DNA of 37,223 bases from SAR116 cluster bacterium AG-325-F22 (lineage in GTDB: Bacteria; Pseudomonadota; Alphaproteobacteria; Puniceispirillales; Marisalimonadaceae): positions 1 through 37,223 of the forward strand of contig QBYJ01000013.1 in the NCBI GenBank assembly GCA_003282885.1, in the 5' to 3' direction. The stretch's first letter is position 1; every line of letters begins with the position of its first letter. Positions 8,611-37,223 of this stretch are shown in pieces. The notes beneath the pieces are model-generated. The model was not told the origin of the DNA. It saw nothing but the letters and a program-made list of their open reading frames with translations, and ran no database searches. The translations under genes and the position numbers were made by a program.

Positions 8611-8647
8611 ATTAATTTGTAGTTAAGTTAGTATCCTAGGAAAAAAA

Positions 8648-9370: not shown

Positions 9371-9371
9371 A

Positions 9372-9953
9372 TTGAGTGATATCAAAACAGTTCTAGATGA
9401 AACACCATTCCAAACAGCTGGTCCTTTTCTTCATATTGGGTGTTTACCTAATGCAATAAATATTGAGGGAGTTTTTGATAACGATTTGGGTGTGAAACCT
9501 TTTGCTAACAAACATTATGACAAGTTTATAACGATTACTGGTTCAGTATTTGACGGTGATGGTAAAGCTTTAGATGATATTATGCTTGAGACTTGGCAAA
9601 GTGATGAAAATGGAGTGTATTCCCCTGAAAGCGGTTTTGCTCGATTTGTTCCAAACAGTTTAACCAAGAAATTTAATCTTTATACTTTAAAACCTGGGTT
9701 TATCAATAACATTGATGGCAAAGCACAAAGTCCTCATATATTATTATCAATATCTTCTAGAGGATTAAATATGACACTAAACACCCGGATATATTTTGAG
9801 GGGGATGATTTAATTAATGATCCTCTTTTATCCATTGTAAAGAATAGCAGAAATGATGTAAGTAGTTTAATAGCTAAAAAAATTGATGAAGATATTTATT
9901 TATTTGATATATTTTTACAGGGTGATAAAGAAACAATATTTTTAGATATTTGA
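9372..9953 (+). CDS. pcaG: Protocatechuate 3,4-dioxygenase alpha subunit
   Basis: The protein aligns with the structural, non-iron subunit: 'TPFQTAGPFLHIG' at the start, 'ITGSVFDGDGKALDDIMLETWQ' in the core and 'TRIYFEGDDLINDPLL' near the end. The iron ligands of PcaH are absent, as expected. Start choice: the longest frame begins at TTG 9345 inside pcaH, but TTG 9372, one base after the pcaH stop, follows the purine-rich 'AAAGAGGGG' at good spacing and gives 193 residues starting 'LSDIKTV', which fits the family length. The tight junction indicates translational coupling of the two subunits in the heteromeric enzyme. Confidence 0.92.
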   Translation: MSDIKTVLDETPFQTAGPFLHIGCLPNAINIEGVFDNDLGVKPFANKHYDKFITITGSVFDGDGKALDDIMLETWQSDENGVYSPESGFARFVPNSLTKKFNLYTLKPGFINNIDGKAQSPHILLSISSRGLNMTLNTRIYFEGDDLINDPLLSIVKNSRNDVSSLIAKKIDEDIYLFDIFLQGDKETIFLDI

Positions 9954-14781: not shown

Positions 14782-14799
14782 ACGATTATCTTTTTAAAA

Positions 14800-16272: not shown

Positions 16273-16285
16273 CTTTTAATCCTTG

Positions 16286-16804
16286 TTAATTTTTTAATAA
16301 ATCTAATAATCCTGGTTCAAAGTGAACGCCAAGAATTATATTAAATAAAACTATTACAAATAATGGAAATCCAATTATGTAAGAAATTAATACTTTCAAT
16401 TTTCTCTCGCCCCAATATAGAGGTAAAGAAATGCTCACAGCAATGATAGTTAATGCAGCTCCTAGTAATTGAGATGAAGCAATGATGGCAGTCAAAATAA
16501 TCATTGTACCTATAGTAGATTTTTCTACAGGTTTTGATCTAGCTGAATCTATATTTTTCCCACTTTTTTTTAAGAAAATATGTTCAAAAGGAATAATCAG
16601 TATCATTCCTAAAATAATTAGAAGTAGAATTTGAGGAAACATTTCAGGGGGTATATTGTTAGAAAATAAATCTGGAACTTTTTCAAATTTAGTTGTCTCA
16701 AACCACAGGAAAGCAATTATAGCAATCATTACTATTGCAATGATTGTGTCTTTTTTATTAAATAATGCACCCAGATTACTGGGTGCAGTTTTATCATTTT
16801 TCAT
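16286..16804 (-). CDS. tctB: Tripartite tricarboxylate transporter, small membrane subunit TctB
   Basis: At 172 residues with four hydrophobic segments (about residues 21-38, 55-73, 94-125 and 140-165) it has the size and layout of TctB. The sequence of this subunit is poorly conserved in general, so the call rests on 'LFSNNIPPEMFPQILLLIILGM', which is the usual 'G..P.FPR' region of the family, and on its place between tctC and tctA. It is thought to help couple the binding protein to TctA. A short stem-loop lies just upstream, between tctC and this gene. Confidence 0.85.
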   Translation of the reverse strand: MKNDKTAPSNLGALFNKKDTIIAIVMIAIIAFLWFETTKFEKVPDLFSNNIPPEMFPQILLLIILGMILIIPFEHIFLKKSGKNIDSARSKPVEKSTIGTMIILTAIIASSQLLGAALTIIAVSISLPLYWGERKLKVLISYIIGFPLFVIVLFNIILGVHFEPGLLDLLKN

Positions 16805-16812
16805 TTCTATAA

Positions 16813-16830
16813 AACCTACAACTTTAGGTT
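16813..16830 (-). other. Short intergenic stem-loop between tctC and tctB
   Basis: On the minus strand 'AACCTA' and 'TAGGTT' flank a six-base loop, followed by a short T-rich stretch, in the 28 bp between the tctC stop and tctB start. It may protect the tctC 3' end or weaken read-through. The six-base-pair stem is short, so this is tentative. Confidence 0.35.
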
Positions 16831-16832
16831 AA

Positions 16833-17828
16833 TTACTTAACTAAACCAAGCTCTTTTAGAGCTGCCTCAGCTACTTTATATTCAGCCTTAAGGTGTTTGT
16901 CCCATACCTTAGTACCAGCCACACTTGTTTCTACTGTTAGACCTGCACCAGCAAGATAACTTTTGAAAACGTCATGTTTCATTGCCTTAACCATAGCCTT
17001 TGATATTTGATCAATAATTGGCTGTGGTGTTGATGCTAAAACAGCATAACCTCTAGTTGTGGAACATTTAGCTTTTATTCCTTTTTCAAAAGTTGAGGGA
17101 ACATTAGGATAGTCTTTAAGTCTATCTTCGGCCATAACAGCTAGGGCTCTGAAACTTCCGTCAGCTACTTGGTTTGCTGCTTCACTAACGTTTGGTAAAG
17201 TAGCATCAATTTTTCCAGCCATTAAAGCTTGAACCATTTGTGCTCCAGAACCAAAAGGAACAACCTTGAATTTTATTCCAGCTTCTTTGGCAAATTGAGC
17301 TAAACCAATATGCTCTGTTCCTCCAATTTGAGCAACACCCCAATTTAGAGGGGCCTTTTTTGAAGCGGACACAAGGTCTTCTAGGGTCTTAAAATTACCT
17401 TTGCCGGACACAGCTATAAAAGTAGGGTCATCCATTGCTCTTGCTACACCAACAATGTCATTAATCTTCATCTTAGATTTACCTCTTGCCATAGTATAAA
17501 GATGAGACTGGGTTAAAGCCATTATAGTATATCCGTCTGCAGGCTTAGATAAAACATAGTTTTGTGCTTTTGCACCTGAACCACCTCTTTTTGCAACTAT
17601 TGAGATGTCAGCTTTTAAATTTCTACGAGTTCTAATCGAAACCATTCTTGCAGTAGTATCTGTTCCACCACCATATTTTGCGTGGATAACAAGTTCAATT
17701 GCTTTGCTAGGGTACTTGTCTGCACTAGCTGTAGAAACTAGGCCAAAGGCACTTATTCCTGCTATAGCGACGACACCCAATCCAGCTTTTACAATATTTC
17801 TTCGAAAAGAATTATTCTTTTGCGTCAT
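16833..17828 (-). CDS. tctC: TTT transporter periplasmic binding protein TctC (Bug family)
   Basis: The 331-residue protein opens with a signal peptide containing 'SFRRNIVKAGLG' and ending in 'ASA' at about residue 36. The twin arginine resembles a Tat signal, but a Sec route cannot be excluded. The mature part begins 'DKYPSKAIELVIHAKYGGGTDTTARM', a standard Bug-family start, and includes 'PADGYTIMALTQSHLYT' and 'VPFGSGAQMVQALMAGKIDAT'. Bug proteins trap carboxylates and related anions in the periplasm. The gap to the upstream dioxygenase gene is 108 bp and 'GGGAGAG' precedes the ATG, so it may have its own promoter. Confidence 0.94.
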   Translation of the reverse strand: MTQKNNSFRRNIVKAGLGVVAIAGISAFGLVSTASADKYPSKAIELVIHAKYGGGTDTTARMVSIRTRRNLKADISIVAKRGGSGAKAQNYVLSKPADGYTIMALTQSHLYTMARGKSKMKINDIVGVARAMDDPTFIAVSGKGNFKTLEDLVSASKKAPLNWGVAQIGGTEHIGLAQFAKEAGIKFKVVPFGSGAQMVQALMAGKIDATLPNVSEAANQVADGSFRALAVMAEDRLKDYPNVPSTFEKGIKAKCSTTRGYAVLASTPQPIIDQISKAMVKAMKHDVFKSYLAGAGLTVETSVAGTKVWDKHLKAEYKVAEAALKELGLVK

Positions 17829-17936
17829 ATTACTCTCCCAGTTTTAAAATTAAGAATTAAGTTTGCATTTGAAAAGTCCATAAATCAACTAATCTTTTAA
17901 ATAATTTAATCGATTGATTAATTAGTTTAAATTTAT

Positions 17937-18791
17937 TTATGCAGATATTTTCATTTCACCTTTTAATTGAGTTCGATGCATTATTCTTCTTGTGTTTGGG
18001 TCAAATGCATCTCTCTTATGAAGAACATTTAAGTTTTTCCACATTAATAGATCACCTTTTTCCCATTTTTGTGTCCAGGTAAATTTTTCTTGAGTTGCGT
18101 GTTCCCATATTTGATCTAACAAATTTTCACTTTCTTCTATTTCCATACCAATTATGTAAGCATGTGGTCTTCTTCCTAAAAAGAGGAGTTTTTTCTTAGT
18201 ATTATTATCTGTAATAATTATTGGGTGTCTGGCCCCAGGTGTTTCAGGCGGATTATCAACTTCTAAATAGCCTTTTCTTAGCATACCTGCACTGTTATGA
18301 GCAGAATCATGGATCAAAACTTTACCATCAATTTTTTCCTTAAGTTTATAGGGTAATTCATCATATGCTAAAGTCATATTTGCAAAGTGAGTGTTACCCT
18401 GATTTTCTGGTACCTCTAGAGCATATAAAATTCCTGCTTTCGGAGGGATTTCTTGATATGTCATGTCTGCGTGCCAAACAGCTTCACCGTCTCCCAAATT
18501 TCCGATAGGAGTACCTTCTTTATTTTTTACATTTGAAATTACATTTATTTCGGGAAACTCTGGTAAAAAATTTATCCCATATGGATTAGGCCCAGGGGGA
18601 TCCAATTCTCCAAAATTTTTACTAAAGTTTATTAATTTGTTATCATCTAAATCCTGTTTTTTAAAGACTAAAACTAACCGTTCATCCCAACATTGATTTA
18701 AAAAATTTATCTGTTCTTGATTTAATTTTTCGCTAAGATCTATCCCTAAAATTTCACCGCCTAAGCTAGCAGCGCTTTTTAACAATTTCAT
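17937..18791 (-). CDS. TauD/TfdA-family Fe(II)/2-oxoglutarate dioxygenase
   Basis: The iron facial triad of this family is present: H107 and D109 in 'VWHADM' and H258 in 'NVLHKRDAF'. The 2-oxoglutarate-binding arginine is in 'NTRRIMHRTQLKG' (R269 or R273). The 284-residue length is normal. Family knowledge: these cytoplasmic enzymes hydroxylate a substrate with oxygen while decarboxylating 2-oxoglutarate, often releasing sulfite, a phenol or an amine from taurine, phenoxyacetates or quaternary amines. The substrate here is unknown; its position between the MLE-type enzyme (19 bp upstream) and the TTT transporter suggests the imported compound. Confidence 0.92.
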   Translation of the reverse strand: MKLLKSAASLGGEILGIDLSEKLNQEQINFLNQCWDERLVLVFKKQDLDDNKLINFSKNFGELDPPGPNPYGINFLPEFPEINVISNVKNKEGTPIGNLGDGEAVWHADMTYQEIPPKAGILYALEVPENQGNTHFANMTLAYDELPYKLKEKIDGKVLIHDSAHNSAGMLRKGYLEVDNPPETPGARHPIIITDNNTKKKLLFLGRRPHAYIIGMEIEESENLLDQIWEHATQEKFTWTQKWEKGDLLMWKNLNVLHKRDAFDPNTRRIMHRTQLKGEMKISA

Positions 18792-18810
18792 TCTTTCTTC
18801 CTTAATAAAT

Positions 18811-19905
18811 TTATTTATATATGACTTCTTTATAAATACTGTATTTTTCTAATTTATCTCTGTCAATTTGCAGTTTCCAATTATCTTCAGTCTCTAAAAA
18901 GCCATTTTGAAATTTAATAGGGTTGGATAAAATTCTAGCTTCAGGTTTTATTTTTAAAAATCCATTATATTCACCGGCATTTTCAATCAAGCCACTTGCA
19001 ATTTTAGCTTCCATCCAACAATTTATTTCAGAGCCTAATCCGTCACCAATTACAATTTCCAAGCCTAAACTATGAGCGTAATTAATTGATTCTGTTAATT
19101 TTGAAATAGAGACAAACCTTTTTAGTTTTAGTTTGCATAAGCTCACACCCTCAATGCGTGATGCTTTTTCAATATCTTGCATGCTGCAAATAGGTTCATC
19201 TAACATAATTGGTACGCTTGATATTTTTGCAACTGCTGCATTAGCTTCCCAATCGTCGGCATCACAAGGTTGTTCAAATAATTCTATAAAGTTAGGTTCC
19301 AAACCTGTTACAAATTTGCAGCCTTCAACTCTTGTATATGCTCGATTAGCATCTATTCTAAGATTAGCTCTTCCATTTAAGTTTTTTTGAATAGCATCAA
19401 TCTTTTTGAGATCTAAACTCACATTTCTACCGACTTTTATTTTGATTGTTGTAAAACCCTGTTCAGTGACTTTGTCTAATTCATCCCTTATTTCTATTTC
19501 TTCTTCTGCATTAAATGCCGTTAACAATTTCATTTTAATAGGATCTTTACCGCTTAAAATACTAGGATTTGTGAGCATTTCAATTGCAATATGTAAGGCA
19601 GTAGATGCAACGATACTTACATGAGAGTGAGATAGAATAATTTCTTTGGCTTCATTAAATGTTTTATTCAAAATTAATTTTGATAATATTCTTGAGAATG
19701 TCCATCCACCATCTCTTGTTTCATTACTTGAGCCAGGAGAAATATGTTGTTCTCCCCATCCCTCATTACCTTCATTATCAATAATGTGAATTAAAAGAGG
19801 TTCAAAAGAATGGAACGTTTTATATGATAATTTGTAAGGTTTAATTAAGGGTAAATCTAACCGGTAAATTGAAATTTTAGTTATTATGCTATCTTTATTA
19901 CTCAT
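18811..19905 (-). CDS. Enolase superfamily, muconate-lactonizing-enzyme/dipeptide-epimerase subgroup
   Basis: The 364-residue protein has a capping domain (about 1-125) and the TIM barrel of the superfamily. Key residues are the 'KxK' pair K155 and K157, the three magnesium ligands D185 ('RIDANRAY'), E211 ('ELFEQP') and D236 ('IMLDEP'), and the opposite-face lysine K258 or K260 in 'CKLKLK'. Lysines on both faces mark the muconate-lactonizing/dipeptide-epimerase subgroup, whose members do cycloisomerisation, 1,1-proton-transfer epimerisation or dehydration. The reaction is not predictable from sequence. It is the first gene of the minus-strand unit with the dioxygenase, TTT transporter and MmgE/PrpD protein. 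Confidence 0.88.
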   Translation of the reverse strand: MSNKDSIITKISIYRLDLPLIKPYKLSYKTFHSFEPLLIHIIDNEGNEGWGEQHISPGSSNETRDGGWTFSRILSKLILNKTFNEAKEIILSHSHVSIVASTALHIAIEMLTNPSILSGKDPIKMKLLTAFNAEEEIEIRDELDKVTEQGFTTIKIKVGRNVSLDLKKIDAIQKNLNGRANLRIDANRAYTRVEGCKFVTGLEPNFIELFEQPCDADDWEANAAVAKISSVPIMLDEPICSMQDIEKASRIEGVSLCKLKLKRFVSISKLTESINYAHSLGLEIVIGDGLGSEINCWMEAKIASGLIENAGEYNGFLKIKPEARILSNPIKFQNGFLETEDNWKLQIDRDKLEKYSIYKEVIYK

Positions 19906-25050: not shown

Positions 25051-26397
25051 TTATCTATTAATTAAAAGTCTACTTGCCATAGCTGGAGCTGCCCCAAGAT
25101 AATTAGCTGGATCAACAATTTTTGACAAATTATCTCTATTAAAAATATTAGAAATTTTTTCGTCTTTTAAAAGTGAGTCAATAAATGCAATATTATTTTT
25201 TATAGAGTGACGACAGCAGTCATAAACTATATCATGAGCAATTTGTCTGCCAAGATGAGGGGCGAGTGCCATCATAACAGCTTCTGCAACAATTAATCCA
25301 TTGGTTTTGTCAATATTTTCCTTCATTTTTTGTGGAGAAATTTCCAGTCCTTCTAAAAGAAATTTAGCGGCACTAAAAGATGAAGAAGCAATTATAAAGG
25401 CGTTAGGTAATACATACCATTCAACATGCCATTGACCAGTTGCTCTTTCATGGTCAAGAACCATAGCATCAAGCATAGACGAATGATGTTCCCGTAGTAG
25501 TTTTGAACAAGCTAATATTACCTCTGAAGAAATAGGATTTCTTTTCTGGGGCATTGTGGAAGAAGAACCTCTTCCATGAAGGAAAGGTTCAGCAACTTCC
25601 TGTGTTTCAGTTTGCATCATTAACATTACGTCATAGGCTATTTTACCTAGCGAAGCTCCTACCAAAGCAAGCCAACCAGTTACTTCACAAAAGTTATCTC
25701 TAATTGAATGCCAACTTACATCAGGCACATTTAAATTTAATTCGTCTGCTAATACTGATTGAGTTTTTAATCCATCAATTTCACCCAGTGAAGCAAGAGT
25801 TCCAGCAGCACCGAAGAATGAAAGATTAAAAACACGTGCCTTAATTTCTTCTAGTCTTTTTATATGTCTATCAATACTAGACAACCAAGTTGATGCCTTA
25901 TAGCCAAAAGATACTGGTAAGGCGTGTTGTAAGTGAGTTCTTCCTGCCATTGGGGTTTTTATATGCTCATTGATAATTTTAACTAATGCATTTGAAATAG
26001 AATCTAAATCTGAAGACAGTAGTTTAAATCCTTCCCTTATTTGAATTACATCAGCAGTATCCATAATATCTTGGGTAGTAGCGCCCCAGTGACAATATTG
26101 TCCATAACCATCACTTACATTATCACTTAATTGCTCTACTACAGGTAAAATAGGGTAGCCAACAATTGATGTCCTCTTTTGTAGTTTTTCCCAATCAATT
26201 ATATCTATTTTGGCTGCGTCACTTATTTTTTGTCCAGCCTCACTCGGTATAATACCTAATTTAGACTGTGATCTTGCTAAAGCGGCTTCGACATCTAAAT
26301 ACAATTGAGTGGTTTTTTCATCTGAAAACAAATAATGCATTTCACTTGTTCCAAACATTTCACCCCATATTTTTGAATTAGTAACTAAGGCTGGCAT
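25051..26397 (-). CDS. Fumarase/aspartase superfamily lyase, PcaB-like (3-carboxymuconate cycloisomerase or relative)
   Basis: The 448-residue all-helical protein carries the superfamily signature 'GSSSTMPQKRNP' (277-288), plus 'HWGATTQD' (103-110) and 'GRTHLQHALP' (152-161), which build the active site from three subunits of a tetramer. It reads closer to 3-carboxy-cis,cis-muconate cycloisomerase and related lyases than to adenylosuccinate lyase, whose usual signature has 'MPYKRNP'. If it is PcaB it would use the product of pcaHG, encoded 15 kb away. Its operon partners (tautomerase, crotonase, thioesterase) also allow a different C-N or C-C lyase role. It starts 3 bp after the crotonase stop. 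Confidence 0.75.
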   Translation of the reverse strand: MPALVTNSKIWGEMFGTSEMHYLFSDEKTTQLYLDVEAALARSQSKLGIIPSEAGQKISDAAKIDIIDWEKLQKRTSIVGYPILPVVEQLSDNVSDGYGQYCHWGATTQDIMDTADVIQIREGFKLLSSDLDSISNALVKIINEHIKTPMAGRTHLQHALPVSFGYKASTWLSSIDRHIKRLEEIKARVFNLSFFGAAGTLASLGEIDGLKTQSVLADELNLNVPDVSWHSIRDNFCEVTGWLALVGASLGKIAYDVMLMMQTETQEVAEPFLHGRGSSSTMPQKRNPISSEVILACSKLLREHHSSMLDAMVLDHERATGQWHVEWYVLPNAFIIASSSFSAAKFLLEGLEISPQKMKENIDKTNGLIVAEAVMMALAPHLGRQIAHDIVYDCCRHSIKNNIAFIDSLLKDEKISNIFNRDNLSKIVDPANYLGAAPAMASRLLINR

Positions 26398-27690: not shown

Positions 27691-28548
27691 ATGAATAATG
27701 AAGAATTAGATATCAATCATTTAAATAAATGGCTTGGCAATATAGAAATGGTTACAGATTATCTTACACCAATTGTTGAACAAAGGTATAGGGCCACTCT
27801 AAACATTGATCCAGGTGATCCTGCAATTGGTGACGCTGCGACTACTGGGTTACATTGGATGTTAGGTTGGAATTTAAAAAAGAATGATGAACTCGGTGTA
27901 GATTCTCATCCCGCACGTGGTGACTTTCTTCCACCAGTCCCACTGCCAAGAAGAATGTGGGCAGGAAGCCAAATTAAAGTAAAAGCCCCTCTAAGAGTAG
28001 GTGATAAGGTAATAAAAAAATCTAAAGTAGCTGACATCAAATTAAAAGAAGGTCGAACAGGTAAGTTATGTTTTGTAACTGCAGAATATGAATATTTAGT
28101 TGATGACGAAGTTCGTTTACATGAATTACATAATATTGTTTATCGTGATGTAACTAAGGCTGGGGGAGGGTCTGGAGTATCAGATGTTATACCAAAAGAT
28201 GCAGATTTCACTGAAACAATTTTTATGCATCCTACTATTTTATTTCGTTATTCGGCAATTGGTTTTGTTGGGCATAGAATTCATTATGATTATCCATATT
28301 CTAAAAATGAAGAAAATTATCCTGATTTAATAGTGCATGGTCCCCTACAAGCAACATTCTTACTTAGGGCTGCAGAAAAACTTAAAGGTAAACCTGTTAC
28401 TTCTTTTAATCACAAAGTCATGGCTCCTGTTTTTGCTAATAGCGACTATATAATTGGCGCTAAAGAAAATACAGATGGAAGCGTTACTTGTTGGGGTGCA
28501 GTTGAAGGTTCGGGTATGACCATGCAAGCTGAGGCTCATTTTGAATAA
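27691..28548 (+). CDS. Two-domain hotdog hydratase (HTD2/FAS1-like, mesaconyl-C4-CoA/itaconyl-CoA hydratase type)
   Basis: The 285-residue protein has an N-terminal hotdog-like domain with 'FLPPVPLPRRMWAGS' (79-93) and a C-terminal hydratase domain with the active-site stretch 'GFVGHRIHYD' (191-200; H195, H198, D200) and 'LIVHGPLQATFLLR' (213-226). This arrangement is that of mesaconyl-C4-CoA hydratase, itaconyl-CoA hydratase and the mitochondrial Htd2 group. Family knowledge: the first adds water to mesaconyl-C4-CoA, giving citramalyl-CoA. It opens a plus-strand run that includes two CoA-transferases, a CitE-like lyase and a MaoC hydratase, which supports a C5-acyl-CoA role but does not prove the substrate. 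Confidence 0.83.
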   Translation: MNNEELDINHLNKWLGNIEMVTDYLTPIVEQRYRATLNIDPGDPAIGDAATTGLHWMLGWNLKKNDELGVDSHPARGDFLPPVPLPRRMWAGSQIKVKAPLRVGDKVIKKSKVADIKLKEGRTGKLCFVTAEYEYLVDDEVRLHELHNIVYRDVTKAGGGSGVSDVIPKDADFTETIFMHPTILFRYSAIGFVGHRIHYDYPYSKNEENYPDLIVHGPLQATFLLRAAEKLKGKPVTSFNHKVMAPVFANSDYIIGAKENTDGSVTCWGAVEGSGMTMQAEAHFE

Positions 28549-28566
28549 AAATTATAGGAGGAAAAT

Positions 28567-29889
28567 GTGGTATCTATAACAAAATTGTTTGGTAGTTATG
28601 GTTCTAATTGTAAATTAGATAGTTTTAACGATGAAATGAGATTTTTTGCAAAAATGTCTATATTAGACTGGTGTGGTGTTGCATATGCTGCAAAAAAAGA
28701 ACCGGTTTCTAAAATTGTTTCTGATATGGTTAAAGAAGAAAATGGTGTTAACCAAGCAAGGGTAATTTCTACTGGTCATAAAGTTTCCTCCAGAGGAGCA
28801 GCTCTAGCTAATGGAGCAACAGGGCATGCATTAGATTATGATGACACGCATTTTCTTTTCGTCGGCCATCCAACTTCCAGTGCATTACCAGCTGCTTTGG
28901 CATTAGGAGAAGAATTAGGTTCTTCGATTGAAGATATATTACTTGCCTATATGGCAGGAGTGGAGGTTTCAACGAGAATAGGACATATTTTAGGATACTC
29001 TCATTATAACGCGGGTTTTCACCAAACCGCTACTAGTGGTTCGTTTGGTTCAACAATTGTTGCTTCAAAACTATTAGATTTGAATGAAGATCAAACAATA
29101 AATGCTCTTGGATTAGTATCCACCAGAGCTTCAGGAATAAAATCTCAATTTGGAACTATGGGTAAACCATTTCATGCCGGAATGGCTGCATCAAATGGTA
29201 TTGAAGCTGCTAAATTGTCAAAGCTTGGATTTGTATCAAAAGAAAATGGTATTGAATGTGAGCAGGGTTTTTTCTTGACACACGGTTGGGATAAAAAAAT
29301 TCCTCCTAGAGCTATAGAAAATTTAGGCACAGATTTTTTATTTCCTGAAATTAAATACAAGTTCCATGCATGTTGTCACGGCTTGCACTCTTTCTTAGAG
29401 GCACTGGATGAGATGAAGTTAGAAAATAATTTTAACCCTGAAACAATAGAGGAAATCGCAATTGAGACTAACCCTTCATGGTTGAAAGTTTGCAATATTG
29501 AAGAACCAAAAACAGGCTTAGAATCAAAATTTTCTTATAAATTAACTGCAGCGATGTCTATTTATGGCAAAGATACGTCTGACTTAGATACATATAGCGA
29601 TGAAATTTGTTTTGATGATAATTTAAATAATATTAGAGATAAAGTAAGAGTGGTACCCAATGATAATTTAAGCAACACTCAATCTTTAATTTCAATTAAG
29701 GATGGTTCTAGTAATGTCAAAAACAAACACGACTTGTCAGATAAAATTGAGAATAATATTCTAGAAACTAAAATTGTAAATAAGTCAGTTTCTTTACTTT
29801 CAGAGACCAAATCAAATCAAATTTCTAAAATATTAAATGCCCCTAATGAAAATAAAGTAGCTTCTCTAGTTGATTGTTTGGTTAGTTAA
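28567..29889 (+). CDS. MmgE/PrpD family protein in the CoA-transferase/lyase cluster
   Basis: A 440-residue member of the 2-methylcitrate dehydratase-like family: 'NGATGHALDYDDTHFLFVGHP' in the helical domain (split over residues 77-97), 'GFHQTATSGSFGST' and 'KYKFHACCHGLHSFLEAL' in the second domain. The GTG at 28567 is the start: 'AGGAGG' ends five bases before it, and the overlapping ATG at 28565 is out of frame and stops after four codons. Its stop overlaps the next gene's ATG (TAATG). Family members act on branched di- or tricarboxylates, fitting the neighbours. It differs widely from the paralogue at 13399, so it is not a recent duplicate. Confidence 0.88.
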   Translation: MVSITKLFGSYGSNCKLDSFNDEMRFFAKMSILDWCGVAYAAKKEPVSKIVSDMVKEENGVNQARVISTGHKVSSRGAALANGATGHALDYDDTHFLFVGHPTSSALPAALALGEELGSSIEDILLAYMAGVEVSTRIGHILGYSHYNAGFHQTATSGSFGSTIVASKLLDLNEDQTINALGLVSTRASGIKSQFGTMGKPFHAGMAASNGIEAAKLSKLGFVSKENGIECEQGFFLTHGWDKKIPPRAIENLGTDFLFPEIKYKFHACCHGLHSFLEALDEMKLENNFNPETIEEIAIETNPSWLKVCNIEEPKTGLESKFSYKLTAAMSIYGKDTSDLDTYSDEICFDDNLNNIRDKVRVVPNDNLSNTQSLISIKDGSSNVKNKHDLSDKIENNILETKIVNKSVSLLSETKSNQISKILNAPNENKVASLVDCLVS

Positions 29890-31046
29890 TGATTGCACAA
29901 AATTCATCCAAAGATTTAGAGGGTTTGCTGGTAGTAACAGTTGAACAAGCCGTTGCAGCTCCGTACACATCATGTAGACTAGCTGATGCAGGTGCTAGAG
30001 TAATTAAAGTTGAAAGACCAGAGGGAGATTTTGCCAGGAATTATGATAGTAATGCACTTGGCAATAGTGCCTATTTTGTTTGGTTAAATAGGGGCAAAGA
30101 ATCTATTGCCTTAGATCTTAAAAATAAAGAAGATATGGCAGTTTTTGAAAATATTATTTCTAAATCAGATATTTTAATTCAAAACTTAGCCCCAGGTGCA
30201 TTTGAACGTCTTGGTTTAGATTTAAAAGAATTAAGATTAAAATATCCTTCTTTAATTACATGTTCTATTTCTGGTTTTGGAGATGAAGGCCCTTATAAAA
30301 ATCAAAAAGCCTATGACATGTTAATACAAGCTGAAACTGGAGTTATTGATATTACTGGTCTACCAGATAAAGAGGGATTTGATGGAAGAGCAAAAGTTGG
30401 TCCATCAGTTTGTGATATTTCTGCAGGTATGACCGCATATCAAGCAATTTTGCAAGCAATAATTAAAAGAAGTATAACTGGAAAAGGAAGACACATTTCA
30501 GTATCAATGTTTAATTCACTCGCTGATTGGATGAACCCTTTTTATTTGGGTTATGTTTATAATCAAAAAGTTCCCAAAAGAAATGGTATGACACACCCAA
30601 TAATTGTCCCATATGGTGCGTACGCTTGTAAGGACAAGCTAACTTTATTGATAGCAATCCAAAATGACAGAGAATGGGCCAATTTGTGTAAAATAGTGTT
30701 GGATGATGAATTTATGGCAAATGATAATCGTTTTAAAACTAATTCCGATCGAGTGGCTAATAGAGAACTAACAGAGAAAATTATTCAAGATAAATTTATG
30801 AAATTCGAACGAGAAGAATTAATTAGAAAACTTGAAGAAGCTAGTGTTGCTTATGGAAGAATTTCTGATATGGAACAATTAAAAAAACATCCACAAAATA
30901 ACTTTTTAGAAATTGATACAAAAAATGGAAAGGTAAAAGTTTTAGGCCCTGGTGCTATACATGATAATTTTATACCAGATGTAAACAAAATGCCTGAATT
31001 AGATGAGCATGGCAAAATGATTAGAACTGAATTTAGTTCTATATAA
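29889..31046 (+). CDS. Class III (CaiB/BaiF) CoA-transferase, first of two in the cluster
   Basis: The 385-residue protein has 'LADAGARVIKVERPEGDFAR' (31-50), 'WLNRGKESIALDLKN' and 'NLAPGAFERLGL'. The catalytic aspartate is D176 in 'GPSVCDISAG'. Family knowledge: such enzymes include mesaconyl-CoA C1-C4 transferase (intramolecular CoA shift) and succinyl-CoA:itaconate or :citramalate transferases. Which of these applies is not readable. Its ATG shares one base with the stop of the MmgE/PrpD gene, and the lyase gene follows 24 bp later, so the three are almost certainly one transcript and are partly translationally coupled. Confidence 0.92.
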   Translation: MIAQNSSKDLEGLLVVTVEQAVAAPYTSCRLADAGARVIKVERPEGDFARNYDSNALGNSAYFVWLNRGKESIALDLKNKEDMAVFENIISKSDILIQNLAPGAFERLGLDLKELRLKYPSLITCSISGFGDEGPYKNQKAYDMLIQAETGVIDITGLPDKEGFDGRAKVGPSVCDISAGMTAYQAILQAIIKRSITGKGRHISVSMFNSLADWMNPFYLGYVYNQKVPKRNGMTHPIIVPYGAYACKDKLTLLIAIQNDREWANLCKIVLDDEFMANDNRFKTNSDRVANRELTEKIIQDKFMKFEREELIRKLEEASVAYGRISDMEQLKKHPQNNFLEIDTKNGKVKVLGPGAIHDNFIPDVNKMPELDEHGKMIRTEFSSI

Positions 31047-31070
31047 AACTATAAAAAACAGGAGTTTACT

Positions 31071-31883
31071 TTGAGAAGCATTTTATTTTTACCAACAGAC
31101 AAAATAGAGAGATTACCTAAAGCTCTAGGATCTGGAGCGGACAAAGTAATTTTTGACTTAGAAGATGGTCTGGCTCACGATAAAAAAGCCCTTGGTAGAT
31201 CTAATTTTGCTGATTTAGCAAATAGAAACTTTGATGGTCAACCGGACAAGTTTTTATTACGAATTAACGCCTTGGACACTGACGAATATCAAGATGATAT
31301 AAAGATGTTAAAATCTCTATCAACTCTTCCTTATTCTATAGCCATCCCCAAAATAGAATCTGCCGATGAGTGTAGAACTTTTTTAAAAGACCTCGGAACT
31401 AATATTTTAATATTACCTCAAATAGAAACTCCACGGGGTATCGCAACAGTTGAGAGTTGGGATTGTTCAAATATAGAATTTTCTGGAATTGGATTTGGTT
31501 CAGCAGATTATTGCGCATCTACAGGTGGGGACATGGGCAAAGCTAGTTTAGCTTACGGCAGAGGTAAAATTATTAACGCCGCTGCTCTATACAATGCCGA
31601 TGCCCTTGACGGTGTATGGTTAGATTTTAGAGATCCTGATGGTTGTAGAGAAGAAACCCAATATGTCAAAACTATGGGATTTAAAGGGCGGTTTGCAATT
31701 CATCCAGATCAAATTAAACCAATTCATGATGCTTATAGACCTACAAGTCAAGAATTAGAATGGGCGAATGGTGTTTTAGAAGAAGCTAAAACTGCAGGTA
31801 CTGGAGCCTTCAAATATCAAGGCAAGATGGTTGACGCACCTGTATTAGCAGTAGCTAGACAGATTATATCAAGGGAGGATTAG
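31071..31883 (+). CDS. HpcH/HpaI-type CoA-ester lyase (CitE-like; citramalyl-/malyl-CoA lyase group)
   Basis: A 270-residue TIM barrel of the CitE/malyl-CoA lyase family. 'KVIFDLEDGLA' (25-35), the acyl-binding arginine R64 in 'LLRINA', the magnesium ligands E119 ('PQIETPRG') and D146 ('GSADYCAS'), and 'GRFAIHPDQI' near the end are all present. Family knowledge: members cleave malyl-, methylmalyl- or citramalyl-CoA, yielding acetyl- or propionyl-CoA plus pyruvate or glyoxylate. It lacks the long C-terminal extension of classical malyl-CoA lyases, closer to CitE and citramalyl-CoA lyases. Start is TTG 31071 after 'CAGGAG'. The MaoC gene begins directly after its stop. Confidence 0.9.
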   Translation: MRSILFLPTDKIERLPKALGSGADKVIFDLEDGLAHDKKALGRSNFADLANRNFDGQPDKFLLRINALDTDEYQDDIKMLKSLSTLPYSIAIPKIESADECRTFLKDLGTNILILPQIETPRGIATVESWDCSNIEFSGIGFGSADYCASTGGDMGKASLAYGRGKIINAAALYNADALDGVWLDFRDPDGCREETQYVKTMGFKGRFAIHPDQIKPIHDAYRPTSQELEWANGVLEEAKTAGTGAFKYQGKMVDAPVLAVARQIISRED

Positions 31884-32423
31884 ATGGATGACAATACATA
31901 CGGAATTAGAAAAATAGGGCCACAAAGGTATAGAGAAGATCCAGGCAGATATTTTGAAGATTTTCAAGTTGGCGATGTTTACGAACATTGGCCAGGTAGA
32001 ACAGTAAGTGAAGCTGACAATATATGGTTTACCAACCTAACAATGAATACACACCCAATACATTTTGATGCAAATTATGCATCTAAGTCAGAATTTGGAA
32101 AATATTTAGTGAACTCTGCCTTCACATTGGCTCTAGTAACTGGAATGTGTGTTAGCGGTACAAGTCAAAAAGCTATTGCTAATTTGGGATGGGAAGAAAT
32201 TAAAATCCCAGCACCTGTATTTGTTGGAGATACTTTATATTCTGAAACAGAAGTCTTAGACAAAAGAGAATCAAAATCCAGACCAACTCAAGGTATTGTT
32301 AAGGTTAGACATATTGGGAAAAATCAGGATAAAGTTGTCGTTATGGATATGGTTAGGTCTTTCCTTGTGGCTAAACGAGGTCATAGTGTAGTAGACAAAA
32401 TTATAGAAGAAACCGCTAATTAG
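31884..32423 (+). CDS. MaoC-like single-hotdog hydratase
   Basis: A 179-residue MaoC-type (R)-specific hydratase domain. The active-site stretch is 'LTMNTHPIHFDANYA' (52-66), with N55, H57, H60 and D62 in the positions of the family's 'D.NPiH.D' motif, except that the first acidic residue is replaced by the 'MN' pair. 'FEDFQVGDVYEHWPGRTVSEADN' is the usual N-terminal region, split over residues 24-46. Family knowledge: related proteins include mesaconyl-C1-CoA hydratase (beta-methylmalyl-CoA dehydratase), commonly encoded beside a CitE-type lyase. Its ATG follows the lyase stop with no gap, and a CaiB-type transferase gene follows 12 bp later. Confidence 0.9.
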   Translation: MDDNTYGIRKIGPQRYREDPGRYFEDFQVGDVYEHWPGRTVSEADNIWFTNLTMNTHPIHFDANYASKSEFGKYLVNSAFTLALVTGMCVSGTSQKAIANLGWEEIKIPAPVFVGDTLYSETEVLDKRESKSRPTQGIVKVRHIGKNQDKVVVMDMVRSFLVAKRGHSVVDKIIEETAN

Positions 32424-32435
32424 AGAGTAATATTA

Positions 32436-33641
32436 ATGAGTTTACCTTTATCTGGCGTAAAAGTAATTGCCTTTGAACAGTACGGTGCAGGTCCATTTGG
32501 AACACAATATTTAGCGGATATGGGTGCAGACGTTATTAAAGTTGAGCCAGCAGGAACTAGCGGAGATTATTTGAGAGATATTGGCCCTTATTTCATAGAT
32601 GGGGACAATAAGAATTCTGCGTCCAGTATCTTTTTTCAAGCACTTAACAGAAATAAAAGAAGCATAACCTTGGATATATTAACCAAGGAAGGTAAAATTA
32701 TACTCCAGAAATTAGTGGAAAATGCTGATGCTGTTTGTAATAATTTAAGAGGTGATGTTCCAGAAAAACTTGGAATAACTTATGAACAACTTAAGCCATT
32801 TAATAAAGCTATTGTTGCTGCACATTGTTCAGCATATGGAAGAGAAGGTCCTAGAAAAAATTGGCCTGGATATGATTACTTGATGCAGGCTGAAGCAGGC
32901 TATTTTTCATTAACAGGTGAGCCAAGTGGACCACCAGCAAGATTTGGACTTTCAATTGTAGATTATATGTCAGGACTTACAATGTCTTTCGGTTTAGTCA
33001 GTGCTGTTTTGTCAGCAAAATCTCACGGTTTGGGAAGAGACGTAGATGTAAACTTGTTTGACACAGCCATGTTTAATCAAAGCTACATGGCTGCATGGAC
33101 ATTGAATACGGATTTTAAAAGTGAAAGATTGGATAGATCAGCTCATCCAATTTTAGTTCCGTGTCAATTATATAAAACAAAAGATGGCTGGATTTTTTTA
33201 ATGTGTAATAAGGAGAGTTTTTGGCCAATATTGTGTAAAAAAATTGGTAGAGAAGATTTAAGTAAAGACCAAAGATTTGAAAACTTTGCTTGTAGACAAG
33301 AAAACCGAGACGAAATTACTAAAATTCTAGATAATGAATTAATGAAAAAAAACACATCAGATTGGTTGAAGGAATTTGGTGGAATAGTGCCAGCAGCGCC
33401 AATCTTAGATTTAAAAGAATCTCTTGAAAATCCATTTTTACAAGATAGAAAAAATATACAACATCTAAAAACTAAACGTGGAGAAGATATAAGTTTATTG
33501 AAAACCCCAGTTCATGTGTCAGATAGCAATTTTCGTGATAAAACTGCTCCAGAACTCGGTGATGACACGCATGATGTACTTGAGGAAATTGGTTTTAATA
33601 AAGAACAAATAAGTAATTTTAAAAATAAAGGCATAATATAG
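32436..33641 (+). CDS. Class III (CaiB/BaiF) CoA-transferase, second of two in the cluster
   Basis: The 401-residue protein has 'QYLADMGADVIKVEPAGTSG' (24-43), 'NRNKRSITLDILTKEG' and 'NNLRGDVPEKLGI', with the catalytic aspartate D176 in 'LSIVDYMSG'. It differs clearly from the transferase at 29889 along its length, so the two probably do different steps rather than backing each other up. Family role: moving CoA between carboxylic acids, here probably between a central donor such as succinyl-CoA and an imported or intermediate acid. It ends the enzyme part of the cluster; 111 bp separate it from the TRAP binding-protein gene, and I see no terminator there. Confidence 0.92.
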   Translation: MSLPLSGVKVIAFEQYGAGPFGTQYLADMGADVIKVEPAGTSGDYLRDIGPYFIDGDNKNSASSIFFQALNRNKRSITLDILTKEGKIILQKLVENADAVCNNLRGDVPEKLGITYEQLKPFNKAIVAAHCSAYGREGPRKNWPGYDYLMQAEAGYFSLTGEPSGPPARFGLSIVDYMSGLTMSFGLVSAVLSAKSHGLGRDVDVNLFDTAMFNQSYMAAWTLNTDFKSERLDRSAHPILVPCQLYKTKDGWIFLMCNKESFWPILCKKIGREDLSKDQRFENFACRQENRDEITKILDNELMKKNTSDWLKEFGGIVPAAPILDLKESLENPFLQDRKNIQHLKTKRGEDISLLKTPVHVSDSNFRDKTAPELGDDTHDVLEEIGFNKEQISNFKNKGII

Positions 33642-33685
33642 TTAAAATTACATAACATATTAATCAATTTCTTCTATTTCATCGC

Positions 33686-33705
33686 AATTAGGGGTTTACC
33701 TAATT
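33686..33705. promoter_or_regulatory. Inverted repeat upstream of the TRAP transporter genes
   Basis: 'AATTAGG' and 'CCTAATT' flank a six-base centre 'GGTTTA', 47 bp before the preferred dctP start. It lacks a following T run, so it suits an operator better than a terminator. A seven-base arm is short, so confidence is low. Confidence 0.3.
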
Positions 33706-33752
33706 CTTATAAAGCTATAGTTTGTGATTCTAAATATTTGGAGGAAATTTTA

Positions 33753-34922
33753 ATGAAATTTACTAAATTATCACTTTTGGGCGCAGTTAGTGCTGTAGCT
33801 CTTACGTTTGCAGCGGGCACTAACCTAGCTATTGCAGACGGACATGCGGTTAAACCTATTAAGATGCGTTGGGCCTCAGACCACTCTGGTCCTCCCCACC
33901 CTGCTGCGATTGCGGAGATGTTTTTTGCCGAGCAGGTTGAGAAAAAAATTCCTGGAAGTAAAGTTCAAATTTATTGGGCTAAGTCTTTATATAATGTTCC
34001 TAAGGGAACACAGGCCTTAACCAAAGGTAACCTAGAGATGATGACAGGTCAGTTTGGAAAAACCTCTAGTGTAGAGCCATATGCTAACACAATTGTTGGT
34101 GCAGGAAAGTTAACAACACCTGGTGCAATAAATGGTTTGGACGGAACAAAAACTTTTGCACAACTCAAAAAGGTTTTTAATGACAAGCATGGAATAACAA
34201 TTTTTGGTTCAGGACACCTAAGTATGTATATGGGTGCTGGTGCTGTAAAAAGTAGAATGTTAGTCCCTAGTGACTTTGCTGGAAAGAAAGTAAGAAGTAT
34301 GGGTCCGGCTGAAAATGCTTTGTTAGGTGCATTAGGTGCTAATCCGACCACAATGGCTTTTGGTGACGTTCCACCTGCTCTGCAAACAGGGGTTATTGAC
34401 GGATTGTTAACTAGTTTAGGTGGATTTAATGCCACTAAGGAGCAAGCCCCTTACTTTACAGTTGCAGGTATCAACGGAATTGTAGGTGACTACTACTGGA
34501 TGGGTGCATCAAACAAATGGTGGTCCACACTTGATAAAAAGCAACAAGCAGCTCTAACTGATATCATTATGAATGACTTCATACCATATCAAAAGGCGAT
34601 TAACTTTTGTAATGATAAGAGATTGGTTGATAAGTTTAAGGTTACTGACAAAAGTGCCCCTGGTATTTATGTGATGAGTCCTGCTGAAGCTGGCGTATTG
34701 CAGAAAAAAGAAGGTGGTGCTACAAATGAATGGATTAAAACTAAAGTTGATGCTACAGGTGATAAAATGGTTGACCAGTTTACAGCTGAAGCTAAAGCAT
34801 TAGTTGCAGCTAATCCTATGGGTTCAAGTAATCTAGAAAAAACTGACTGTACAGCGTTTGCCTCAGATTTTGCTAAATTTGCAAAGGGAACTGCTCTATA
34901 TAAGAAAAAGTCTAGAAAATAA
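33753..34922 (+). CDS. dctP: TRAP transporter periplasmic substrate-binding protein, DctP family
   Basis: A 389-residue exported binding protein. The signal peptide 'MKFTKLSLLGAVSAVALTF' leads to a likely cleavage after 'AIA' at about residue 29. The mature domain contains 'PIKMRWASDHSGPPHP', the middle segment 'LVPSDFAGKKVRSMGPAENALLGALG' (split over two strands) and 'PPALQTGVIDGLLTSL', all typical of TRAP binding proteins whose conserved arginine (here in 'KVRSMG') pairs with a substrate carboxylate. Start choice: ATG 33753 follows 'GGAGG' at about eight bases; the TTG at 33738 lies within that site. A stem-loop follows the stop, then dctQ and dctM. Confidence 0.94.
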   Translation: MKFTKLSLLGAVSAVALTFAAGTNLAIADGHAVKPIKMRWASDHSGPPHPAAIAEMFFAEQVEKKIPGSKVQIYWAKSLYNVPKGTQALTKGNLEMMTGQFGKTSSVEPYANTIVGAGKLTTPGAINGLDGTKTFAQLKKVFNDKHGITIFGSGHLSMYMGAGAVKSRMLVPSDFAGKKVRSMGPAENALLGALGANPTTMAFGDVPPALQTGVIDGLLTSLGGFNATKEQAPYFTVAGINGIVGDYYWMGASNKWWSTLDKKQQAALTDIIMNDFIPYQKAINFCNDKRLVDKFKVTDKSAPGIYVMSPAEAGVLQKKEGGATNEWIKTKVDATGDKMVDQFTAEAKALVAANPMGSSNLEKTDCTAFASDFAKFAKGTALYKKKSRK

Positions 34923-34925
34923 TAT

Positions 34926-34961
34926 ATCAAAGAAGGTCTGACTTTGTCAGGCCTTCTTGAT
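34926..34961 (+). terminator. Intergenic stem-loop between dctP and dctQ, partial terminator
   Basis: A 5' arm at 34926-34942 and a 3' arm at 34946-34961 pair over about 16 bp, with one bulged A and one G-U, around a 'TTT' loop; the T-rich 'TTGAATTTTTATT' follows. The position right after the binding-protein gene suits a processing or partial termination site that keeps dctP mRNA above dctQM mRNA. Confidence 0.65.
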
Positions 34962-34974
34962 TTGAATTTTTATT

Positions 34975-35526
34975 ATGCACAGCTTTTATAACATTTCTCA
35001 TAAAATACAAGACTTGATAACTTCTATTTTGGGAAGATGTTCTGCAACTTTAATGATAGCTGTTACACTATTTGCATTAGCTGAAATTATTAGAAGATAC
35101 GTTTTTGGTGTTGTTTTTGAGTGGGGCCAGGATGCTGTGATTTATATGATGGTTTCTTCGGTTGCATTTTATATATGCGTTACTCAAATCAACAGGAGCC
35201 ATTTAGTTATGACTGCTGTTCTACAATTATTAAATACTAAAGGGTTCCATCGAACTGTAGGCTTTTGTAAGATTTTTATCTCCATGTTTGTCTCAGTTTT
35301 TACCGGATCTTTAACTTACACGGCTTATTCAACAATTGAGTACTCTATTCAAATTGGAGAAAGAACTGAGAGTTTATTTTTTTATATGTGGCCATTTTAC
35401 TTCATATTAGCTATTGGAATGGGACTAATGTCTCTAGTTGCCCTTCTACAATTTATTGAAGATGTGCATAGTTACATCAAGGGTGATCATTTTACGGCTA
35501 CAGTCGAAGCTGCAACCGATGTATAA
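34975..35526 (+). CDS. dctQ: TRAP transporter small membrane subunit, DctQ family
   Basis: The 183-residue protein has four hydrophobic segments (about 20-45, 55-75, 97-120 and 137-160). 'EIIRRYVFGVVFEWGQDAVIYMM' (split over residues 38-60) is the typical region in which a membrane helix is followed by a tryptophan or glutamate near the start of the second helix. DctQ is the small partner of DctM and is needed for docking the binding protein. No clear ribosome-binding site precedes ATG 34975, which lies in T-rich DNA just after the stem-loop. dctM follows by 24 bp. Confidence 0.92.
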   Translation: MHSFYNISHKIQDLITSILGRCSATLMIAVTLFALAEIIRRYVFGVVFEWGQDAVIYMMVSSVAFYICVTQINRSHLVMTAVLQLLNTKGFHRTVGFCKIFISMFVSVFTGSLTYTAYSTIEYSIQIGERTESLFFYMWPFYFILAIGMGLMSLVALLQFIEDVHSYIKGDHFTATVEAATDV

Positions 35527-35550
35527 TATATTTAAAGTAGGAAATTTATA

Positions 35551-36834
35551 ATGTGGGCTCTTGGTGGATCTTTATTTACCCTTTTATTTGCAGGTGCTCC
35601 AATTGGAATTGCCCTTGCTGGCGCTACAGCACTTCTAGTTTTATTTGATGACTTTTTAACATACAGCACACTATTTGAAGCTTTTTTTAGTTTTCTTACA
35701 AAATATACATTAGTCGCAATACCATTTTTTATTTTTGCTGGGTTTTTAATGGAAAAAACAGGACTAGTAGCCGGTCTGTTTAGATTTGCTGATTCAGTTG
35801 TAGGATGGGTTCCTGGTGGATTTGCCTATGCTACTTTACTTGCAGCTGTTTTATTTGGAGCTATCTCAGGTTCGTCAACTGCTATGGCAGCTGCAATGAG
35901 TGTTATTGCATACCCTGAGTTGATCAAAAGAGGCTATCCTAAATGGATGGCAGCAGGTGTAATAGCTTCGGCTGGTGGCATTGCTCTTCTAATACCTCCA
36001 AGTATTACTCTTATTTTATTTGGAGTAATTACGGAAATGTCTATAGTTGATTTGTTTTTTGCTGGTATTATTCCTGGTATAATGCTCGCTATTAGTGACG
36101 CAGTAATTATAGTAAGTGTCTCCCTGTTTATAAAATTACCAAGAGGTAAATTTGATTTATGTGAGGTATGGCGTTCATTTAAGGATGCTGTTCCTGCTCT
36201 ACTAATGCCAGTAATTATTCTTGGAGGTTTATATGGCGGCTTGTTTACTCCTACAGAAGCGGGAGCAGCAGCGGCTAGTTATGCTCTTTTTTATGGATTA
36301 ATTTTTAAACGCAAAACATTTGTTAAAGAGTTAATGCCCACAACTCTTAGAACAATGAACTTAACAGCAGTTGTTTTCTTTTTATTAGGTTGTGTGGGTA
36401 TTTTCCAATTTTATCTTGCCAATATGGGTTGGCCGCAAATGATTGCAGAATGGGCTGGCGAACTAGGATTAACTCGTTTAGGCTTTTTATTTGCTTTGAT
36501 GGGATCTTTGTTATTTTTATCAATGTTTTTAACGGGCGTAGCTATTTTGGTATTAACTGTTCCTATTTACTTTCCTGTAGCATTAGCACTTGGTGTAGAC
36601 CCGATCCATCTCGGAATACTAACTGCTCTTTGTATAGAGATTGGTAGTGTAATTCCTCCAGTTGGTTTAAATTTGTTTGCTGTAAGTGGCGTCACTGGTT
36701 TACCAGTTACTACAGTTATAAAAGGCTCATTCCCCTTTTGTATTTCTGATACGTGCGTTTTAATTATTGTACTTTTATTTCCTGCATTAGCTTTAACACT
36801 GCCAGAGCTTTTAGTGGTATCTCACTTTAAGTAG
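35551..36834 (+). CDS. dctM: TRAP transporter large permease, DctM family
   Basis: A 427-residue permease of about 12 membrane segments. Recognisable family parts are 'GAPIGIALAGATALL' near the start, 'AIPFFIFAGFLMEKTG' (about 56-71), 'GAISGSSTAMAAAMSVIAYPELIKRGY', 'PPSITLILFG' and 'IGSVIPPVGLNLFAVSG'. It is the ion-coupled transport subunit; TRAP systems use a sodium gradient to bring in the acid held by DctP, often C4-C6 di- or monocarboxylates, sugar acids or ectoine. 'TAGGAA' precedes the ATG. Its last 13 bases overlap the end of the convergent amidase gene. Confidence 0.95.
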   Translation: MWALGGSLFTLLFAGAPIGIALAGATALLVLFDDFLTYSTLFEAFFSFLTKYTLVAIPFFIFAGFLMEKTGLVAGLFRFADSVVGWVPGGFAYATLLAAVLFGAISGSSTAMAAAMSVIAYPELIKRGYPKWMAAGVIASAGGIALLIPPSITLILFGVITEMSIVDLFFAGIIPGIMLAISDAVIIVSVSLFIKLPRGKFDLCEVWRSFKDAVPALLMPVIILGGLYGGLFTPTEAGAAAASYALFYGLIFKRKTFVKELMPTTLRTMNLTAVVFFLLGCVGIFQFYLANMGWPQMIAEWAGELGLTRLGFLFALMGSLLFLSMFLTGVAILVLTVPIYFPVALALGVDPIHLGILTALCIEIGSVIPPVGLNLFAVSGVTGLPVTTVIKGSFPFCISDTCVLIIVLLFPALALTLPELLVVSHFK

Positions 36835-37223
36835 GTATTCATAATAGTATTAGCATAATCTAAAAGTTGGTTATCATTTCCAAATTTTGTGACTAGCTGG
36901 CAGCCAATTGGCAGTTCTTTATCTCCCTTAAATAAAGGTAAGGTAACACAAGGGTTACCATTCAGGGACCATGTAGTATTAAACATCGGCGAGCCTGTAT
37001 ACCCGAGACCTTCAAGAGCTTCACCAGGAGCACTTGGAGTGATAATCATATCAATATCGTTAAAAATTAAATCTGTCTCATGTTTTAAAATATTTAGTTT
37101 TTTAAGGGCAATTTTATAGTGTTCATTTGTTACTTGATATCCATCATTTAATCTTCCGTTTCTCAACTGATCACTTAATTCGTCATAATGATTAAATCTC
37201 TCAAAAGAGATAGATCTTTTAAA
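36822..37223 (-). CDS. Amidase-signature family protein, C-terminal part (truncated by window edge)
   Basis: Only the C-terminal ~130 codons lie inside the window; the frame stays open to the right edge, so the TTG at 37166 is not the real start. 'DIDMIITPSAPGEALEGLGYTGSPMF' (split), 'NGNPCVTLPLF' and 'ELPIGCQLVTKFGND' are the usual closing segments of GatA-type amidases. The Ser-cisSer-Lys catalytic triad would be in the missing N-terminal part, so activity cannot be judged. Family knowledge: these hydrolyse amide bonds of many small molecules or, as GatA, take part in tRNA amidation. Its end overlaps dctM by 13 bp. Confidence 0.82.
   Translation of the reverse strand, partial: FKRSISFERFNHYDELSDQLRNGRLNDGYQVTNEHYKIALKKLNILKHETDLIFNDIDMIITPSAPGEALEGLGYTGSPMFNTTWSLNGNPCVTLPLFKGDKELPIGCQLVTKFGNDNQLLDYANTIMNTYLK

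Follow-up and report, generated by a model that had tools for sequence, protein, structure and literature searches.

Gene content and conservation of a nine-gene SAR116 operon

The genome of SAR116 cluster bacterium AG-325-F22 is available as a 1.6 Mb draft that is 63% complete, and we analysed a stretch of 37,223 nucleotides from it (contig QBYJ01000013.1, hereafter the window) in which positions 27691-36834 carry nine plus-strand genes for six enzymes, most of them of coenzyme A (CoA)-dependent families, and a TRAP importer. Open reading frame (ORF) checks and Pfam and NCBIfam profile searches found all nine genes, tightly packed and of the families that an earlier reading of the letters (the original prediction) had named. 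The first, ICH2 (27691-28548), encodes a double-hotdog HTD2 acyl-CoA hydratase of the Pseudomonas aeruginosa itaconyl-CoA hydratase (Ich) family in which IGFV replaces xTFN, as judged by phmmer, an AlphaFold2 fold comparison, a motif survey and a duplication tree. MMGE (28567-29889), which has a GTG start, encodes an isomerase-like protein of the MmgE/PrpD family (Pfam PF03972/PF19305, PDB matches and catalytic residues). CAIB1 (29889-31046) overlaps MMGE by 1 bp and encodes a class III CoA-transferase of the itaconate CoA-transferase (Ict) clade (tree support 100/99), and CITE (31071-31883), with a TTG start, encodes a CitE-like acyl-CoA lyase of a RipC-side lineage (Pfam and NCBIfam, PDB structures of Ccl and RipC, tree support 100/98). 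The product of MAOC (31884-32423) is a single-domain MaoC hydratase similar to RipB, the Ich of Yersinia (NF038241, 234 bits), and its gene is a recurrent partner of CITE and CAIB2. CAIB2 (32436-33641) specifies a second class III CoA-transferase, from a clade whose genes adjoin those for RipB-type MaoC and acyl-CoA dehydrogenase (tree support 100/98, and the gene order of locus L182). The TRAP importer is complete by Pfam, with a DctP substrate-binding protein (33753-34922, PF03480; ATG at 33753 preferred as start over TTG at 33738), a DctQ small permease (34975-35526, PF04290) and a DctM large permease (35551-36834, PF06808, and TIGR00786 above cutoff).

The gaps between consecutive genes are 18, -1, 24, 0, 12, 111, 52 and 24 bp; that of 111 bp precedes DctP, that of 52 bp separates DctP from DctQ, and the remainder lie between -1 and 24 bp. 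A 13-bp hairpin in the DctP/DctQ gap (34930-34958, plus strand), found by pattern scan only, could be an attenuator or a 3' stabiliser, and a promoter scan gave no excess of hits over shuffled sequence.

The order ICH2-MMGE-(CAIB1)-CITE-MAOC-CAIB2-TRAP is kept in 20 SAR116 loci from four genera of one family, the outcome of a gene-order comparison in related marine genomes that the original prediction had proposed, and given this recurrence the nine-gene run exceeds chance. The exception is the SAR116 single-cell contig L047 (QBXD01000021.1), which runs through CAIB1 and then turns back, inverted, through the operon, an inverted-duplicated arrangement that is probably an amplification chimera. 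Two genera lack CAIB1 in the operon; most of their genomes that we checked have an Ict-like transferase (62-63%) elsewhere, and its gene adjoins a second Ich gene in both genomes examined. The lyase gene of the operon occurs in 46 of 58 searched genomes of the family, and matches of this similarity are all but absent from the rest of the order.

Conservation reaches beyond the operon on either side. To the right lies a convergent amidase gene cut by the window end (36822-37223, minus strand), which in relatives (L212:723-4684, also L213 and L214) is followed by a third MmgE/PrpD gene (MmgE3) and an acyl-CoA dehydrogenase gene; in these relatives the unit extends past the 27691-36834 interval first proposed for it, just outside our window. 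MmgE3 is 41-44% identical to the MmgE/PrpD protein of a Shinella Mcd-Ich-Ict-Ccl cluster and the dehydrogenase is about 60% identical to that of RipB-type clusters; NCBIfam held no informative model for the SAR116 acyl-CoA dehydrogenase or for MmgE proteins from methylsuccinate isomerase (Msi) contexts. A homolog of methylsuccinyl-CoA dehydrogenase (Mcd; 62%) is encoded, unlinked, elsewhere in the same genome. On the left, a divergent operon for a hotdog thioesterase, a lyase termed CMLE, an enoyl-CoA hydratase and a small tautomerase-like ORF is also conserved.

The operon joins two modules of different lineage

Phylogenies of the transferases and lyases divide the operon in two. In the CaiB tree, CAIB1 nests (100/99) among transferases that adjoin Mcd, Ich and citramalyl-CoA lyase (Ccl), and CAIB2 nests (100/98) among transferases that adjoin RipB-type MaoC, mostly together with an acyl-CoA dehydrogenase. 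This tree contained no biochemically characterised Ict sequence, and orthology to Msi and Ict rests on the gene context and clades of alphaproteobacterial clusters rather than on the P. aeruginosa PA0881/PA0882 sequences. In the CitE tree, CITE branches with the lyases encoded at RipB-type loci and with Yersinia pestis RipC, and the P. aeruginosa Ccl clade stands separate (100/98). Family trees, which the original prediction had put forward as a check on its C5 assignments, thereby uphold the Ict side for CAIB1 and the RipC side for CITE, and they separate CITE from P. aeruginosa Ccl.

Gene neighbourhoods show the same division. CITE-MAOC-CAIB2 with TRAP genes recurs in another alphaproteobacterial family (L182), CitE-MaoC-CaiB with TRAP is also found in L197 and L180, and the unit appears together with an acyl-CoA dehydrogenase gene in L180 and L136. 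RipB-type MaoC occurs in none of 79 HTD2-hydratase loci from outside SAR116, 56 of them longer than 15 kb, and both hydratases stand together in 20 of 23 SAR116 loci, in a sample of HTD2 loci that is not independent, since many are from Bradyrhizobium. Mixing of the lineages is not unique to SAR116, as Ict-clade transferases also accompany RipB-type MaoC in L135 and L137. The operon is thus two joined modules, a P. aeruginosa-type ICH2-MMGE-CAIB1 and a Yersinia RipB/RipC-type CITE-MAOC-CAIB2-TRAP. This junction accounts for the presence of a second CaiB transferase, which had originally been taken as a hint of an extra entry step.

ICH2 is a remodelled HTD2 hydratase

Sequence and structure place ICH2 with the P. 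aeruginosa itaconyl-CoA hydratase. It scores 175 bits against this enzyme (8khg/8huc) in phmmer, and 8khg is the best fold match to its AlphaFold model (predicted local distance difference test, pLDDT, 91), with a TM score of 0.88 that bears out the two-domain HTD2 assignment made from the letters. The active-site loop has changed within this fold. A motif survey found that the loop following the central helix in hotdog domain two reads RYSAxTFNxHRIHYD in nearly all homologs, and that the same loop is RYSAIGFVGHRIHYD in all 19 operon-borne (island) ICH2 copies sampled, so that the Thr and Asn of the TFN motif are gone and IGFV stands in the place of xTFN.

SAR116 genomes carry a second, TFN-bearing HTD2 copy, which in the source genome is located on contig C19 (871-1713; locus L252). 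The tree resolves a single HTD2 duplication within SAR116 (100/100); the branches of the island copies are short, a sign of strong conservation after the motif change. ICH2 is the divergent copy of this SAR116-specific duplication; judged by its conservation it is probably functional, and its substrate need not match that of the canonical copy. Two hydratases in one operon, with a canonical third copy elsewhere, make a clean system for studying shifts in hydratase specificity. The C19 paralog adjoins a beta-hydroxyacid-dehydrogenase-like gene.

A predicted route for branched C5 dicarboxylates

To what end would such an operon be maintained? Our preferred reading, held with moderate confidence, is that it is a hybrid system for the uptake and degradation of a branched C5 dicarboxylate of the itaconate, mesaconate, citramalate and methylsuccinate class. 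We infer the substrate, CoA donor, products and ICH2 reaction as follows. The free diacid would be imported by the TRAP system, and CAIB1, CAIB2 or both would place CoA on it, with succinyl-CoA as the probable donor. The unsaturated CoA ester would then be hydrated by MAOC, ICH2 or both to a 3-hydroxyacyl-CoA of the citramalyl-CoA type, which CITE would cleave to acetyl-CoA and pyruvate. Saturated substrates such as methylsuccinate could enter via an acyl-CoA dehydrogenase, and MMGE, with MmgE3 where present, might interconvert the stereoisomers of the free acids.

The enzyme families and folds, the gene order shared by four genera, the trees with their two lineages and the recurrence of the second module in L182, L197, L180 and L136 all speak for this reading. 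The original prediction of an importer with a CoA-transferase, a hydratase and a CitE-type lyase for branched C5 diacids is supported by CAIB1 in the Ict clade, CITE beside RipC, the match of MAOC to the RipB/Ich model and the Ich fold of ICH2. Further points in favour are the nearby dehydrogenase and MmgE3 genes of relatives, the unlinked Mcd, the likeness to a P. aeruginosa cluster and what is seen of MMGE. The PDB matches of MMGE include the Bacillus subtilis IRG1 homolog and IDS epimerase, and its homologs at 39-41% identity stand inside canonical Ict-Mcd-Ccl-MmgE-Ich clusters (L177 and L036). It keeps seven of seven aligned catalytic positions (His/Asp/His/Tyr/His/Lys/Lys) of the set reported for IDS epimerase and methylsuccinate isomerase (PMC12290011); relatives with a different function, or with none known, retain the set too, so it does not prove the substrate. 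MmgE/PrpD proteins are a standard part of P. aeruginosa-type clusters, as methylsuccinate isomerase (PMC12290011, PMC9875883), and the suggestion that MMGE marks a step outside known schemes is therefore not supported.

The original prediction had also allowed for the second half of the 3-hydroxypropionate bi-cycle, or entry from glyoxylate plus propionyl-CoA, with which the operon shares CitE-like, MaoC, CaiB and HTD2 enzymes as broad classes. The family models of that pathway fall far short: the Mct model TIGR04253 gives 27 and 60 bits against a cutoff of 725, the Mch model NF041625 gives 71 against 560 and the Mcl model NF041626 gives 34 against 500, the latter two models being haloarchaeal. 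MAOC has one domain and covers just half of the two-domain mesaconyl-CoA hydratase (Mch) profile, CITE groups with RipC, and no carbon-fixation genes lie in the operon. We rejected the bi-cycle on the scores of the Mct, Mch and Mcl models and regard it as scarcely credible.

Several observations weigh against a C5 substrate. No operon enzyme passes a substrate-specific curated model, MAOC reaching 234 of the 340 bits set for the RipB/Ich model NF038241 and CITE 163 of the 375 bits set for the RipC equivalog model. The latter shortfall is uninformative for CITE because the true P. aeruginosa Ccl, run as a control, scores just 155 bits, and we dropped it as an argument against Ccl activity; the PDB matches of CITE are structures of P. 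aeruginosa Ccl and Y. pestis RipC. DctP is not close to IctP, with 29 bits to 9ht3, which we take to be IctP, and its AlphaFold model (pLDDT 42) is too low in confidence for ligand inference. ICH2 lacks the TFN motif of nearly all its homologs, and because a canonical-motif paralog is retained elsewhere in the same genome the island copy may act on a different acyl-CoA. Finally, a RipB-type MaoC with CitE and an acyl-CoA dehydrogenase could also fit a C6 route through 3-methylglutaconyl-CoA and 3-hydroxy-3-methylglutaryl-CoA (HMG-CoA).

In an alternative reading, the same chemistry serves a related but different branched dicarboxylate, for instance the C6 acids 3-methylglutaconate, 3-hydroxy-3-methylglutarate or 3-methylglutarate, or 2,3-dimethyl-substituted succinates, with acetyl-CoA and acetoacetate or propionyl-CoA and pyruvate as products and with ICH2 reshaped for the task. 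The loss of Thr and Asn after a SAR116-specific duplication, their replacement strongly conserved since while a canonical paralog is kept, speaks for such a change of substrate. The closest NCBIfam model to CAIB2 is the succinate-glutarate CoA-transferase, although well below cutoff (all CoA-transferases of the operon being class III, PF02515), and a model for gamma-carboxygeranoyl-CoA hydratase comes closest for the divergently encoded enoyl-CoA hydratase, again below cutoff. CAIB1, however, sits deep within the Ict clade, the homologs of MMGE are located in canonical C5 clusters, and in our searches the operon enzymes show no closer tie to HMG-type families. We consider this alternative possible, if on the unlikely side. 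A doubtful, more speculative proposal is that the joining of the modules is functional rather than redundant, ICH2 having gained a new acyl-CoA substrate after the duplication, such that the operon would degrade a branched dicarboxylate whose breakdown has not been described in bacteria, in an abundant ocean lineage.

Should the substrate be a branched C5 diacid, as in our preferred reading, SAR116 would be expected to consume acids of the itaconate class in seawater; our literature search found no paper naming SAR116 and itaconate together.

The neighbouring lyase CMLE and Tad1-like clusters in other bacteria

The left-flank gene CMLE (25051-26397, minus strand) encodes a divergent lyase of the PcaB/Tad1 superfamily. 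It is a conserved neighbour, not clearly part of the system. A trans-aconitate decarboxylase at this position would supply itaconate to the operon, and the second-best PDB match of CMLE is Ustilago maydis Tad1 (423 bits), the SAR116 CMLE sequences form the sister group of the Tad1 clade (97/94), and true Tad1-like lyases adjoin Ich and Ict in other bacteria. Despite this sister placement we rejected CMLE as a bacterial Tad1 on its motifs, which are the canonical GRTHLQHA, NPISSE and WHVEW (QWHVEW) rather than the Tad1-type RSNLxQA and PWEIxW, and we judge such a role very unlikely. PcaB is the simplest assignment because six SAR116 genomes contain no PcaB-like protein besides CMLE, and because protocatechuate dioxygenase genes lie in the window; CMLE is probably the PcaB of this organism.

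Positions 7441-9953 of the window encode an FAD monooxygenase, PobA-like by sequence, and then two subunits of the protocatechuate dioxygenase family, in what is a small SAR116 genome. The minus strand at 13399-19905 encodes a second set for the uptake and degradation of carboxylates, made up of another MmgE/PrpD protein, a tricarboxylate transporter of the TctCBA type, a dioxygenase of the TauD family and an enzyme of the enolase superfamily.

Plasmid loci of Bradyrhizobium (L127:3770-9359), Azospirillum (L131:2288-8362) and Cupriavidus (L043:9977-17600) place Ich and Ict beside a Tad1-type lyase, together with carboxylate transporter genes. Their lyases are 56-58% identical to U. maydis Tad1, share its changed active-site motifs and form a clade with it at 100/100 support. 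The Azospirillum and Cupriavidus loci also encode an isomerase of the PrpF family, to which the fungal aconitate isomerase Adi1 belongs, and the Bradyrhizobium locus has a Ccl-like gene. These clusters are predicted to encode a pathway from aconitate via itaconate to acetyl-CoA and pyruvate, which offers an explanation for a similar locus of Cupriavidus necator that was left unassigned (PMC12290011). Tad1-type lyases appear rare, as none of 398 sampled Pseudomonadota genomes had one above the search threshold. Our literature search found no paper describing bacterial degradation of aconitate via itaconate with a Tad1-type decarboxylase, and the pathway appears to be undescribed.

Comparison with known systems

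With the 3-hydroxypropionate bi-cycle (Mcl, Mch, Mct and Meh) the SAR116 operon has broad enzyme classes in common; it differs in failing the family models and in having neither Mct nor a two-domain Mch.

The Yersinia rip operon (RipA-RipB-RipC) and the alphaproteobacterial RipB-type clusters (L182 and L136) share with it the CITE-MAOC pair of RipC/RipB lineage, and L182 has CaiB2 and TRAP as well. RipA is a class I CoA-transferase; the SAR116 operon has no transferase of this type, with class III CaiB proteins instead, and it carries an HTD2 hydratase and MmgE in front.

In P. aeruginosa, PA0878-PA0886 (ich-mcd-rdo-msi-ict-ccl-ictPQM) encodes Ich, methylsuccinyl-CoA dehydrogenase, a lactonase, an MmgE/PrpD methylsuccinate isomerase, Ict, Ccl and the IctPQM TRAP importer, and it supports growth on itaconate, mesaconate and citramalate as well as on both methylsuccinates; this pathway and that of Yersinia have been described as convergent alternatives (PMC12290011, PMC12599236, PMC9875883). 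The SAR116 operon likewise clusters an HTD2 hydratase, an MmgE/PrpD protein, an Ict-clade CaiB, a CitE-like lyase and a TRAP importer, and MmgE/PrpD and TRAP genes in this company are thus already known from PA0878-PA0886. The operon differs in lacking mcd, the Mcd homolog being unlinked and a different acyl-CoA dehydrogenase lying to the right of the window in relatives; in a lyase of the RipC side rather than the P. aeruginosa Ccl lineage; in the addition of a RipB-type MaoC and a second CaiB; in a hydratase of the same family and fold from which the TFN motif is absent; and in a TRAP importer whose DctP is not close to IctP. What is new here is a hybrid that combines both known itaconate-type systems and includes a remodelled hydratase, with parts of pathways described as convergent standing in a single operon kept across a SAR116 family.

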